From Blochmannia endosymbiont of Camponotus (Colobopsis) obliquus (GTDB taxonomy: Bacteria; Pseudomonadota; Gammaproteobacteria; Enterobacterales; Enterobacteriaceae), in assembly GCF_000973545.1 (NCBI RefSeq), contig NZ_CP010049.1, positions 248,001-312,000 of the forward strand: a stretch of 64,000 bases of DNA, written 5' to 3'. Below, in pieces: positions 13,850 through 20,745 of this stretch (the stretch's first letter is position 1; every line of letters starts with the position of its first letter). A program made the translations under genes and the position numbers. The notes below the pieces were generated by a model. It saw only the letters and a list, made by a program, of their open reading frames with translations, was not told the origin of the DNA and searched no databases.

Positions 13850-15391
13850 AGTTATGATCTCTTTAATTAATATTAATAGTTTGAAAATTGTTGTAATTTA
13901 TGTTGTTTTAACAAAATTTATATAATTTTGTTTTATCAGCATTCTATTAAAATAACAAAAATTTTGTAATTTCAAAATATATTGTTTATTTTTTAAAATT
14001 ATCTATCGAAATGAATTATATATCAAATTTATTAAATTACAAAATTTTTCTTTTAATTTGATTTTTATAATGTTTGTGATTATGAGAAGCGTTATAAAGA
14101 TAAAATAATAGTTTGATATAGTATAGAAAATATATAGATAAATATAGGGTTTGAGTGTTTAAGTATGTAAATGTTATGTATTTGTTTAATATTTTATAAA
14201 TAAATATTGTTGCATGTTTGATTTGTTTATTACTTTAAGTAATATTATTTTTATTGATTATATTTTTATTGTTTTGTGATTAGAAATGAAATATGGAAAA
14301 TTTGTTTAAGATGTATTTTAAGTATGGATAATTTGTATTTTTGTTAGAATATTTTGCAATATTGTTAACATGTAAGATTGAGTTAATTAAAATAGTTACT
14401 GATATATTAATGTTGTGAGATGTTTGTTTTGTATTTATTATTATTTTTTTGGAGTTGTAATATTGATAATATATGCATTTGTGTAAATTTATTTAATATA
14501 GTAATTGCATTTTGATATGTTTTTGAAGAATTTTTTATTTTTATATTTTAATTGTTTTATAATTAAATTTATTTGATATTGAAATTTAATTTTTGTGATT
14601 AGTTTATTATATTCATATTGTATATAATTTAAGTAAAATATATGAATATTTATTATAATTTTGTTATAAACGTATTTATTTATTTGCATAGATTTACGTT
14701 TTTCAGGGACGTTACATTATTTATATAAGATTATTATTATAATACAAAATAATAACTTGTTTGTATTTTGTAAAATTTGTGCATCAGTAGAGTAGTATTT
14801 GTTTTGTTGAGAAGGATGTTTATGATTAATTTATATTAATATTTTTATTATAAGTATAATGATGGTCTAAATGTTATTCATTGTAATATTTTCATATAGC
14901 AGAAAAGAAGTTTAAATTATTTATAAATTAATGTTAATAGTTAATATTTGTTAAGTAAACTACGGTAATGTGTGTATATATGATATAAGTAAATTTAGTA
15001 GTTTTTATTTTTTTATATATGAAAACATGTATAATTGTTTTTTTTCATCAATAGTAACATCTTAATTGAGAAGTATTGTTATTACATATGGATGGTTTGG
15101 TATGTTTTAAGTAAAAGAAGGTGGCAGACATTACCACATATTTTAATGTTATATTTTGCATACTATTATATAATTTGTATTATTTAAATTGTTTTAATAC
15201 GATGTATATATTTTATTTAAAATATTATATTGATGCAGTAAGTATTGTTATCCACATTTAGATATAGAATTATAGATATTTATTAAAATAATGAAAAGTA
15301 TAATTTTACTGCAAAGTTATTGTTGTTTTTTATTGTATTTTTTATTTTATTGATTTATATATTTATATAATACACTATGGGGTAATTGAAA
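13850..15391 (+). other. 1.5 kb region without genes
   Basis: This is the longest empty stretch apart from the pseudogene region. It is extremely AT-rich with stops in all frames. The only open frame of note (14489-14689, minus) is Asn/Ile/Lys/Tyr-rich and looks like translated A/T noise. In E. coli queA and tgt precede yajC; I tried to recognise queuosine gene remnants here and could not. It presumably holds the promoters of the peroxiredoxin gene and of yajC. Confidence 0.6.
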
Positions 15392-15730
15392 ATGAGTATT
15401 TCTTTTATTAATAATGCTATTGCAAGCGTTGATTCTTCATATCAAGGTAATCCTTATTCTTTTATTATTGTATTATTAGTTTTTATTTTAGTTTTTTATT
15501 TTATTATTTTTCGTCCACAACAAAAGCGTAATAAAGATCATAGAGAGTTAATGAATTCTATTAGTAAAGGAGATGAAGTATTAACTAGTGGAGGTTTAGT
15601 TGGTAAAGTAGTTAAAATTACTGAAACAGGATATATTTTTGTTATGCTTAATGAAAATATCAATGAAATCATTATTCAGCGCGATTGCATTACTGCCATT
15701 TTACCAAAAGGTACAATGAAGTCTTTATGA
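15392..15730 (+). CDS. yajC: YajC, small membrane subunit of the Sec holocomplex
   Basis: YajC is a single-span inner-membrane protein that associates with SecDF in the Sec holotranslocon. The ATG at 15392 (MSISFINNAIASVDS) gives 112 residues, near the E. coli length of 110; the frame is open to a TTG at 15386. It shows one hydrophobic segment (FIIVLLVFILVFYFIIF) followed by RPQQKRNKDHRELM and the family signature KGDEVLTSGGLVGKV, ending LPKGTMKSL. It is intact, although its immediate partners secD and secF downstream are disrupted. secD begins 16 bases after its stop. Confidence 0.95.
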   Translation: MSISFINNAIASVDSSYQGNPYSFIIVLLVFILVFYFIIFRPQQKRNKDHRELMNSISKGDEVLTSGGLVGKVVKITETGYIFVMLNENINEIIIQRDCITAILPKGTMKSL

Positions 15731-15745
15731 TTTTAGGATGTTTTT

Positions 15746-17597
15746 GTGTTAAATCGTTATCCTTTATGGGTATATTTCTTACTTTTTATAATATTACTTT
15801 TTGGAATATTATATGCGCTTCCAAATTTATATGGAGAGAGTTTTGCTGTACAAATTAGGCATGTACAAGGCGATCGTATTAATAACATTGATGTGGTTAA
15901 TATTAATACGATGCTAAAAGATCAAGGTATTGTTTATAGGTATTTTGTTATTAAAGATTATGTTTTGTCAATTTGTTTTTTTTAAACAAGAAGATCAAGT
16001 ACAAGCGTATAAAATATTATTACAAAATTTGAATAAAAAGTTTACTGTATCTTTTTTTTATTGTCACATGTTCCAATTTGGTTAACTAATATTAAATCTA
16101 AACCAATAAAGTTAGGTTTAGATTTATGTGGTGGCATACATTTTTTAATGAAAATAGATATGGATATTATGTTTAATAAATTGTACGAACAATGTATTAA
16201 TGAGTTTGTTCGTGATTTATATAATAAAAATATTTTTTATGTAAAAATACAAAAGATAAAAAAACTACAGTCATGAAGTTTATTTTAGTGATTCTAATGT
16301 TAGAAATGTAGTACGTTTGTTGTTGGTTAATAAATATAAACAATTGTTATTTTATAATATTAAAAATTTTGGGTTAAGTATTACATTATCTGATGAATTT
16401 TTATCCACATTTCGTAGGCATGCTTTACAACAAAATATTGTTATTTTACGTGATCGTATTAGCCAATTAGGTGTTAGTGAATCTTTAGTACAAGCTCAAA
16501 GTATGAATAATATTATTGTAGAACTTCCTGGTATTCAAGATATAGTATTAGCTAAAGATACCATTGGTGCAACCGTGACTCTTGAGTTTCGTTTAGTCAA
16601 TAGTAATGTAAAAGAATATTTCTCTACAGACCAAGAATATGAATTGCAAGATTGTGAAATAAAAAAAATACTTGTGACGGTGAGCCATATTTATTGTATA
16701 GGAAGCCTATTTTAGGCGGTGAACATATTATTAATGCTAATTATTCTCGTAATGAATATAATCAACCCCAAGTAAATATTTTTCTTGATGCAAAAGGGGT
16801 AATATCATGTCTCAGTTTACTAAAAATAATATCGGTCGGCTTATGGTTATTCTTTTAGTGGAATATAAAGATGGCGGGGAAAAAGATGTTGATGGTCATG
16901 TTATTTTTGTTAAACAAGAAAAAATAGTAAATATAGTTACTATTCAATCACAACTAAGAAATTATTTTTGTATTGTTGGTATTAATAATTCCAATGAAGC
17001 TCGTAGGTTATCAGTATTATTACGTATGGGCTCTTTAAGCGCTCCTATGCATATTGTGGAGGAATGTACTATTGGCCCAAGTTTAGGAATGAATAACATT
17101 ATTAAAGGATTGTATGCTTGTTGTATTGGATTAACATTTTTAATTTTATTTATGGTATTTTGGTACAAAATATTTGGTGTAATTGCTGCAGTAGCACTAA
17201 TTACTAATTTGTTATTAATTATCAGTATAATACTTTATTACCTGGAGTAACGCTTACTATGCCTGGAATTGCAGGTATAATATTGACTTTATCTATAGCG
17301 GTAGATTCTAATGTTTTAATTAATGAAAGGATTAAAGAGGAATTGAATATGGGTAAAACAGTACAGCATGCAATTTATACAGTTTATCATAAAGCTACTT
17401 ATAGTATATTTGATGCTAATATTGTAACTATAATTGCTTCAATTATATTGTATATATTAGGTACTAGTGTCATAAAGAGGTATGTTATTACTACAATTAT
17501 TGGTATAACCGTGTCTATGTTTACATCAATTATTGGTACACGCGCTATAGTTAATTTATTGTATGGTTCTAGAGATATTGATAAAATATCTATTTGA
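15746..17597 (+). pseudogene. secD: SecD, protein translocase subunit, broken by six frameshifts
   Basis: SecD with SecF uses the proton gradient to pull exported proteins out of the Sec channel. From the GTG at 15746 (MLNRYPLW) to the TGA at 17595-17597 the whole E. coli SecD sequence (615 residues) can be followed, but only by changing frame six times. The changes are at T8 (15976-15983), T8 (16052-16059), A7 (16258-16264), A8 (16661-16668), AAAAGGGG (16792-16799), and near 17225-17240. Identity is high in each segment, for example KLGLDLCGG, ALQQNIVILRDRISQLGV, VELPGIQD, TIGATVTLEFRLVN, NEYNQPQVNI, TIGPSLGMNNI and TMPGIAGI. The functional Asp in IAVDSNVLINERI is kept. This is either a young pseudogene or a gene rescued in part by slippage at its homopolymers. 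Confidence 0.9.
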
Positions 17598-17608
17598 GGA
17601 TTATTTTA

Positions 17609-18517
17609 GTGCAACAACATAATAGTTTAAGAATATTGAGATATTCATTAAATGTATATAATTTTATGTCTTGGAATATGTTAGTTATTGGTATATCGAT
17701 ATTTCTGTTAGTTATTTCTTTTTTAGTTATTGTAATGCGTGGTTTTAATTGGGGTATGGATTTTACTTGAGGAATAGTTATTGAATTATATTTAGAAAAG
17801 TCAGTGAATTTATCTCAAATATGTAATATATTGATATATTTAGGATATAAAGATACAATTGTGCAAAGTTTGGGTAGTAATAAAAATATAATTATACGTA
17901 TGTCTTTAATAAATAATGATTTAATTTATCAAATAACCGATCAAATATTATTAACGTTAAATAAATCTTTGGAGTAAAATATTTATACTCAAAGAATAGA
18001 TTTTATAGGACCGGGTGTTGGTAATGATTTGATGAGATGTGCTGGAATTTCATTTGTATTATCTTTGCTGTGTATTTTTGCTTATGTTAATATTTGTTTT
18101 CGGTGGCATTTTGCAGTAGGTGCTGTATTAGCATTAGTACATGATGTAGTAATTATAATTGGAGTATTATCTTTATTATTTATAGAGATAAATACAATAA
18201 TTATTTCTGCTTTAATATTTGTTTTTTGTTATTCTTTGAATGATAGTATTGTTATTTTTGATCGTATTCGAGAAAATTGTTATTTATATTATGATAGAGA
18301 TATTGTTGAAATTTTTAATATATCTTTAACTCAAGTTTTAAAAAGAACTTTTATAACATCGTTTACTACTGCTGCAGTATTGTTAATTTTGTTAATTTTT
18401 GGTGGGTCTTTGTTGCGTGGTTTTGTGACAACATTGTTAGTTGGTGTGTTTGTTGGTACTTTTTCTTCTATTTATATAGCTTCAGCTTTAGCTTTTCAAT
18501 TATCTAAAAATAAATAA
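17609..18517 (+). pseudogene. secF: SecF, protein translocase subunit, with two in-frame nonsense codons
   Basis: The frame from the GTG at 17609 covers all of SecF without an indel but contains two stops. TGA at 17768-17770 replaces the first Gly of the conserved MDFTGG motif, and TAA at 17975-17977 falls before QRIDFIGPGVG. The remaining sequence is well conserved: RGFNWGMDFT, FVLSLLCIF, RWHFAVGAVLALVHDVVI, YSLNDSIVIFDRIREN and the C-terminal SSIYIASALAF. The longest surviving frame starts at 18029 and would give only the C-terminal membrane part. TGA ends other genes here (lysS, rppH), so recoding is unlikely. Breakage together with secD suggests that the SecDF motor is lost or being lost. 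Confidence 0.9.
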
Positions 18518-18968: not shown

Positions 18969-20185
18969 TTGTATTTTAAAATTATTAAAATTGGTGAAGT
19001 AATTTTATTGTTAAATGATAATAAAAGTTGTTTATTACGTGCATTTTATTTAGTTTGTCATGGTTGTTATATAATTTTACCAAATCCTCATATTAGATGT
19101 GTTATTGTATTAGATAATAAAATAGTTGGTAAAGGTTACTATTTATGTGTTGCTAAACTTGATACAGAAATAAATATATGTATGACTTATTACGGATAGT
19201 AGTACTCAACGTGGTGTAGTCGTGGTATTACGTTTTTGAACTTTGTAATTATTATAAGCATAAAATATCTTGTATAATTGTTTACATTATTAAATGCTGG
19301 AGTATTGAAAATTTGTAGTACCTCAATGTTAAATTTTAATTTTTATATAACGATATTTGCTGTATTTTATTTAATGTAAAGTTAGTGTTGAAGAAAAATA
19401 TAATTTTATGTTACTTATAGTAAAAGAATTAATTAAGGGTTTATTAAATGTATGCACAATGCGTACGAGTTTATGATGTCTTGAATTAAAATTATTGATT
19501 GTTTTAAGTGGTTGTATTGTTACGAGTAATGGTAATGGTCGGTGGATTACTTATTTTCTTGTACGTCAAGAAATGTTCAAATTTGTAGAATTGATAGTGA
19601 TGTAGTTCTTTTTATTGCTTGCTGCTATGTAACAGATAATTTTATGCAAAACGTGTGTTGGGAGTTGTCATCTAAAAAAATTCAAGATAATTATGATTGA
19701 ATTGATTTGCGTCAGCAATGTAAAAGTAATAGTAGATAATACAGCTAATTGAGTCGTGCTTGCGTGTAATAATTAATAATATATTTTTTTGTTAAAAGAT
19801 TGTGAGGGGAAAACGTAGTAGTGCGTTCGTTTCAATAAGGATTGGTCATGATTGATTATTTTGTATAGAACAATTGTTGTTGCTTTTATATATTTCAACA
19901 TGAGATAAAAAGATTGTATTGGATTGCATTAATGCAATATTTGGTGTGTTGTGACTTGAATACTGTTTCAGTAAAAAAAAATGGGATATTTTTTTTGATG
20001 CATTACTTAGCGGTGTTTCATGGATGAATTAATTATTTATTAAAGTTTTAAATTATTTGGTTAGGATGTACAGCCAATGTGTATTTTTTTAAAATATAAA
20101 ATCTTAGTACAGTAATATCTTTTAAATTATTTAATATATATACAATTGGTTCTGATGTTCGTTGATGATTACAGCTAATTAAAAT
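18969..20185 (+). pseudogene. ribD: RibD relic (riboflavin deaminase/reductase)
   Basis: RibD carries out the deaminase and reductase steps of riboflavin synthesis. Homology blocks follow the E. coli order in shifting frames. Near 19030-19190 there is LLRAFYLVCHG, LPNPHIRCVIVLDNKIVGKGY, the deaminase N-terminus. At about 19425-19560 there is KGLLNVCTMRTSL, then ELKLL and GNGRWIT. At about 20010-20060 there is ALLSG and DELIIY, then KLFG with DVQPMC. At about 20140-20165 there is IGSDVR. The zinc-binding HAE motif has become DTE and the PCxxC block is unrecognisable. Multiple stops interrupt every frame. Its place upstream of ribH and nusB is that of E. coli. Clearly non-functional. Confidence 0.85.
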
Positions 20186-20283: not shown

Positions 20284-20745
20284 ATTATAAAATTAATTGA
20301 GGGTACAATTGTACTTGATGCAAGTATTGCAATTGTTGTTGTTTGATTTAATAAATTTGTTAGTAATTCTTTACTTAAGGATGTTGTTGATACTTTAAAG
20401 CGTATTTTGTTAAGTTAAAGATAATAATATTGTTATTATTTGCTTTCCTAATATTTATTACGAATTGTATTTACGGTAGCTGCATTAGGAAACAGTAATA
20501 AATATGATGCAATGAATAGCTTGAGGTATTATTATTATCATGTCATGATACTGTTTATTTTTGAATTTATTTTTGGGTATTTTGCAGTTTTGGTTTGTCA
20601 AAAATTTTTGTTAATAATTTATTATCAAGTATTTGTTAGTGTGTTAACAATAGATAATGTAGATTATGCAAGTTGTTGAGTGTGTTGAAATTTTAACGGT
20701 GTTAATAAAAGATCATATGCAGTCATGATTATTTGAAAGATGATT
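20284..20745 (+). pseudogene. ribH: RibH (RibE) relic, lumazine synthase
   Basis: The E. coli lumazine synthase can be traced in pieces. IEGTIVLDASIAIVVV is followed by a TGA, then FNKFVSNSLLKDVVDTLKRI (20296-20410). Next comes ELYLR, a frame change, and VAALGNSNKYDAM (about 20460-20510), and finally VLTIDN near 20640. Several stops and at least one frameshift break it. It sits between the ribD relic and nusB, its normal place. Loss together with ribD means that this locus cannot make riboflavin. Confidence 0.8.

Follow-up and report, generated by a model that had tools for sequence, protein, structure and literature searches.

Frame breaks in secD and nonsense codons in secF point to a recently inactivated gene pair in the Blochmannia endosymbiont of Colobopsis obliquus

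The yajC–secD–secF locus and its lesions

The window analysed here comprises 64,000 bases (248001-312000) of the single 773,940-base contig (CP010049) of Candidatus Blochmannia obliquus (hereafter B. obliquus), which lives in the ant Colobopsis obliquus. Its genes of interest follow one another in the order yajC, secD, secF, the remains of ribD and ribH, nusB and pgpA, and then dxs on the opposite strand (Table 1). These neighbours are found at graded stages of decay, yajC being open, secD carrying frame breaks only, secF carrying stops and ribD being eroded. The product of yajC is 62-71% identical to those of 13 congeners and scores 93.9 bits against NCBIfam TIGR00739 (cut-off 44.2) when scored from its second codon. 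Toward the other end of the locus, ribD has accumulated 7-13 in-frame stops and 8-10 breaks and retains 33-35% identity, the ranges being those over three references.

Table 1. Features of the locus, in window coordinates
Feature	Position	Strand	Description
yajC, open	15392..15730	+	112 aa from ATG; first of the yajC-secD-secF order
secD pseudogene	15746..17597	+	reading from GTG to the stop codon crosses six frame breaks and zero in-frame stops; listed as pseudogene in the part of PMC4389277 considered
secD break 1	15974..15983	+	alignments place it at 15974-15977; T8 run at 15976-15983
secD break 2	16052..16059	+	alignments place it at 16053-16059; T8 run at 16052-16059
secD break 3	16258..16274	+	at or after A7 run (16258-16264); 16259 in 4/5 references, 16274 in 1/5
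secD break 4	16661..16668	+	alignments place it at 16662-16668; A8 run at 16661-16668
secD break 5	16792..16808	+	in or just after AAAAGGGG (16792-16799); alignments 16793-16808, about 15 bases uncertain
secD break 6	17230..17235	+	alignments place it at 17230-17233; no homopolymer
secF pseudogene	17609..18517 (about)	+	GTG start, two in-frame stops; listed as pseudogene in the part of PMC4389277 considered
secF stop 1, TGA	17768..17770	+	at first Gly of DFTGG; 5/5 alignments
secF stop 2, TAA	17975..17977	+	5/5 alignments
ribD pseudogene	18972..20180	+	much older decay; listed as pseudogene in the part of PMC4389277 considered

Two further observations concern the flanks of the pair. A relic of ribH (lumazine synthase) lies at 20284-20406 on the forward strand, spans 41 codons with one in-frame stop and is 55% identical to a congener protein, which recovers it at E 1e-6 when the full window is searched by tblastn. 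On the yajC side, about 1.5 kb (13850-15386) are without a notable ORF; of seven congeners examined at this place, six carry an open frame of 372-382 residues, a putative tgt judging by its position and sequence, and tblastn detected no relic of this frame in the interval (best E 0.20).

Frame-aware DNA-protein alignments with five of 12 intact SecD proteins, from four congeners and one outgroup, all yielded six breaks, zero in-frame stops and the use of three frames (5/5). The restored frame is 47-51% identical to these five proteins over 607-613 codons, and the start-to-stop span of 1852 bases is no multiple of three. Break positions agree among the references to a few bases, save for breaks 3 and 5. 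A preliminary description of this DNA had counted six frameshifts in three frames, had assigned four of them to runs of T8, T8, A7 and A8, and had set those at AAAAGGGG and near 17230 outside long homopolymers; the alignments bear out the count, the frames and both sets of assignments. The stop count given for secD in the part of PMC4389277 considered presumably includes stops that follow a frame break, or reflects a lower aligned coverage. A scan of genome contigs with one secD fragment returned no relative, and a second scan, for which 7 SecD proteins were aligned as the query, returned 496 loci, the best 80 of 496 being listed.

Four of the five secD fragments match successive parts of SecD in Pfam (SecD-TM1, SecD_1st, SecDF_P1_head and SecD_SecF_C), and the fragment at 16061-16276 has no Pfam match. 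The C-terminal fragments of secD and secF form open frames of 147, 112 and 162 residues with 51-71% identity to congeners, as would be seen if one or more fragments served as shorter proteins. The fragment borders, however, cut through both the P1 domain and the membrane domain, and a newly broken gene is expected to leave fragments that are still open; we regard functional fragments as scarcely credible.

The damage to secF was absent from the preliminary description. The C-terminal half of the gene scores 161.7 bits against PF02355, and all 12 intact relatives aligned (12/12) carry a glycine at the site of the TGA codon. A break near 17653 was suggested by one of the five references and was left uncounted.

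A/T runs, mismatch repair and transcript slippage

Exactly four A/T runs of at least 7 bases occur in secD, the longest being 8, and all of them (4/4) lie at breaks. Counting the four runs with 2 bases on each side as 47 of the 1852 bases, the chance that at least four of six random breaks would fall within them is P = 6e-6. The gene is open over 619-629 residues in 11 of the 13 congeners, those that possess it, despite 56 runs of at least 7 bases in total (2-8 per gene, with lengths up to 9, in the 11 genes), and 47 open ORFs of the same window (42,579 bases; hand-picked out of 83, part of them checked as genes) contain 99 such runs; because ORFs are open by definition, these contrasts show selection removing slipped runs and not stability of the runs.

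A search for MutS gave no match in the B. obliquus genome and a match in 11 of 14 control genomes. In the part of PMC4389277 considered, mutS is one of 15 genes said to occur in B. turneri alone. We infer that the missing match fits hypermutable runs and would offer a simple reason for the run indels coming first. In a genome that lacks mismatch repair, the pattern suggests, breaks at long A/T runs would come before the build-up of substitutions.

Homopolymers are error-prone on some sequencing platforms, which raises the question of whether the secD and secF lesions are errors of sequencing or assembly. We consider this extremely unlikely, as the 47 ORFs with their 99 runs are open, two secD breaks lie outside long A/T runs, and the secF stops involve no frame change. 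Moreover, in the part of PMC4389277 considered, the genome is described as sequenced by Illumina at 558x, with Consed and GATK/VarScan finding no position to edit and with no position at which the read majority disagreed with the sequence.

The location of four breaks in runs of 7-8 bases also calls to mind RNA polymerase slippage, which at A/T runs could restore the frame in part of the transcripts, some SecD then being made and selected. Tamas in 2008 and Wernegreen in 2010 reportedly discussed frameshifted genes possibly kept by transcriptional slippage. Where genes of Blochmannia and Buchnera are frameshifted and contain long poly(A) runs, the parts of two studies considered give 30% full-length (PMC3017870) or 12-50% corrected transcripts (PMC5009743), and secD has neither in-frame stops nor excess divergence. 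Nevertheless, the runs in these two reports, which state no lower limit in the parts considered, are 9 bases or more, and the longest in secD is 8; by our own arithmetic, correction at four sites with 12-50% each would leave about 0.02-6%. Two secD breaks, in addition, fall outside A/T runs of at least 7 bases, and the two nonsense codons of the partner secF are beyond repair by slippage. In the part of PMC3017870 considered, the genes counted as intact carry a single indel in an A/T run and are otherwise in frame, whereas secD has six breaks. Slippage correction is thus highly unlikely, because there are six breaks, two of them outside long A/T runs, and a doubly stopped partner.

Timing and constraint

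We compared the B. obliquus branch with the rest of the tree for secD, secF and six control genes, which are neighbours lying in the retrieved stretches. The resulting branch ratios are 0.491 for secD and 0.445 for secF, inside the range of the controls (dnaQ 0.575, gmhA 0.455, prxC 0.608, yajC 0.284, nusB 0.383 and pgpA 0.637; range 0.284-0.637, mean 0.490, SD 0.140). Such ratios are expected for a very recent loss and equally for a gene still under selection. The protein branch ratio was used in preference to dN/dS because synonymous sites were judged likely to be saturated: in a tree of six concatenated neighbour proteins, B. obliquus stands apart from the 13 congeners by a branch of 0.67. 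The root was placed by hand on B. obliquus (G000), so the tree has no bearing on the earliest-diverging position published for it in the part of PMC4389277 considered. The outgroup (G021) entered the identity and invariant-column counts and was left out of the branch test. The gene dxs was excluded from the controls since it is cut in several stretches and split in congener G003. There (L034, 15701-17643), dxs forms two ORFs, which matches the single-run dxs frameshift of B. vafer published in the part of PMC3017870 considered.

Residues invariant in the genus, defined on 11 congeners with gaps and X set aside, are kept at 180/239 positions (75%) in secD and 74/97 (76%) in secF, compared with 75-88% in the six controls. 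These values lie at the low end yet within the control range, and at the level of sequence relaxed constraint itself is not demonstrated by them.

A nonsense clock provides a second estimate. Two stops in 879 codons correspond to about 0.010-0.015 substitutions per site over six mutation settings (95% limits 0.001-0.053), on the assumption that secD and secF became neutral together. The 579 codons of secD hold zero in-frame stops; given two stops in total, the probability under neutrality that both fall in secF is 0.13, and the stop-free frame is therefore a weak argument for selection. The preliminary description had called the damage recent, with little conservation lost, and this reading holds: secD and secF have no excess protein divergence over the six neighbours, and the clock gives about 0.01 substitutions per site, which together argue for a recent loss.

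The stop-free 579 codons and the lack of excess divergence would also be expected of a corrected gene under selection. A variant in which correction at all six sites yields low-level SecD, with the stop-free frame under selection and SecF obtained by readthrough or in truncated form, appears to us most improbable. If true, we know of no corrected gene that is broken into more pieces than secD.

A dispensable SecDF motor and published pseudogenes

SecDF is an accessory motor: acting from the periplasmic side, it pulls on proteins during export, and E. coli can do without it in ordinary growth conditions. One search each in the B. obliquus genome found three genes of the Sec core open, with SecY of 446, SecA of 873 and YidC of 650 residues. 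Within the genus, SecD and SecF gave no match in two of the 13 congeners, a set that seems to exclude the Colobopsis nipponica symbiont (CP046533, 728,116 bases), which is closer by host genus according to the part of PMC8086219 considered. In those two congeners, tblastn over 19-kb stretches around yajC recovered no secDF relics (best E 0.34). Since two of the 13 have no match, loss of secDF appears to be tolerated in the genus. Independent losses of secBDF in several lineages are reported in the part of PMC4389277 considered.

The survival of yajC beside a damaged pair can be set in a wider frame. A survey of 392 family genomes, tallied by hand, left 83 in which the C-terminal domain of SecD/SecF has no match; B. 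obliquus was counted as having the domain, and 63 genomes absent from the list of 309 SecD/SecF matches were taken as lacking secDF. YajC is matched in 35 of these 83 genomes, in 18 genera, and 48 lack both. The converse, a SecD/SecF match with none to YajC, is seen in 5 of 309 genomes, and among the five the match in G044 is weak, as is that in G342, a 73% complete genome. YajC matches total 339 (309 - 5 + 35), one of them below the family cut-off. These counts suggest that yajC often outlives secDF, the genomes being related and hence not independent events and yajC being a much smaller target, and they hint at a SecDF-independent role of YajC. A literature search by title found no title on yajC persistence without secDF.

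A pseudogene is recognised by several independent disabling lesions and by the loss of orthologues elsewhere in the genus. We found six lesions in secD and two in secF, and the pair has no match in two of 13 congeners. Three rival readings, namely correction by slippage, errors of assembly and fragments with a function, were weighed and rejected on the lesions, the coverage and the domain splits. We conclude that secD and secF are very probably a recently inactivated pair, from which no functional SecD or SecF would be made. The preliminary description had favoured loss of function and had doubted correction by slippage; our data support this, and the two secF nonsense codons strengthen it.

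The inactivation may have begun when the SecDF motor became dispensable, which would have ended selection on secD and secF. Replication slippage, poorly repaired without MutS, could then have broken secD at each of its long A/T runs at an early stage. Slower point mutations would meanwhile have begun to hit secF. The core translocon genes (secY, secA and yidC) and yajC are still open. The loss is an ordinary genome-shrinking step in an ant endosymbiont, and it leaves knowledge of the organism unchanged.

That secD and secF are pseudogenes is already known. Both genes, together with ribD, are on the list of 15 B. obliquus pseudogenes in the part of PMC4389277 considered (Williams & Wernegreen 2015), and our calls for the three genes are the same. 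A lesion map of secD, the timing of secDF relative to ribD and a link to homopolymers are absent from that part; the relative timing and the run statistics are additions made here. The same part reports no detectable ribH pseudogene in B. obliquus, in contrast to the short relic seen here.

The closest published parallels are dnaX, dnaG, dxs, pth and ribF of B. vafer, which, as described in the part of PMC3017870 considered, share with secD breaks in A/T runs, conserved flanks and no acceleration of the rate of protein evolution, the last being a feature also looked for in slippage-corrected genes and found in secD. The B. vafer genes carry a run indel and are otherwise in frame, whereas secD has six breaks, two of them outside long A/T runs, and a partner with nonsense codons (PMC3017870, same part).
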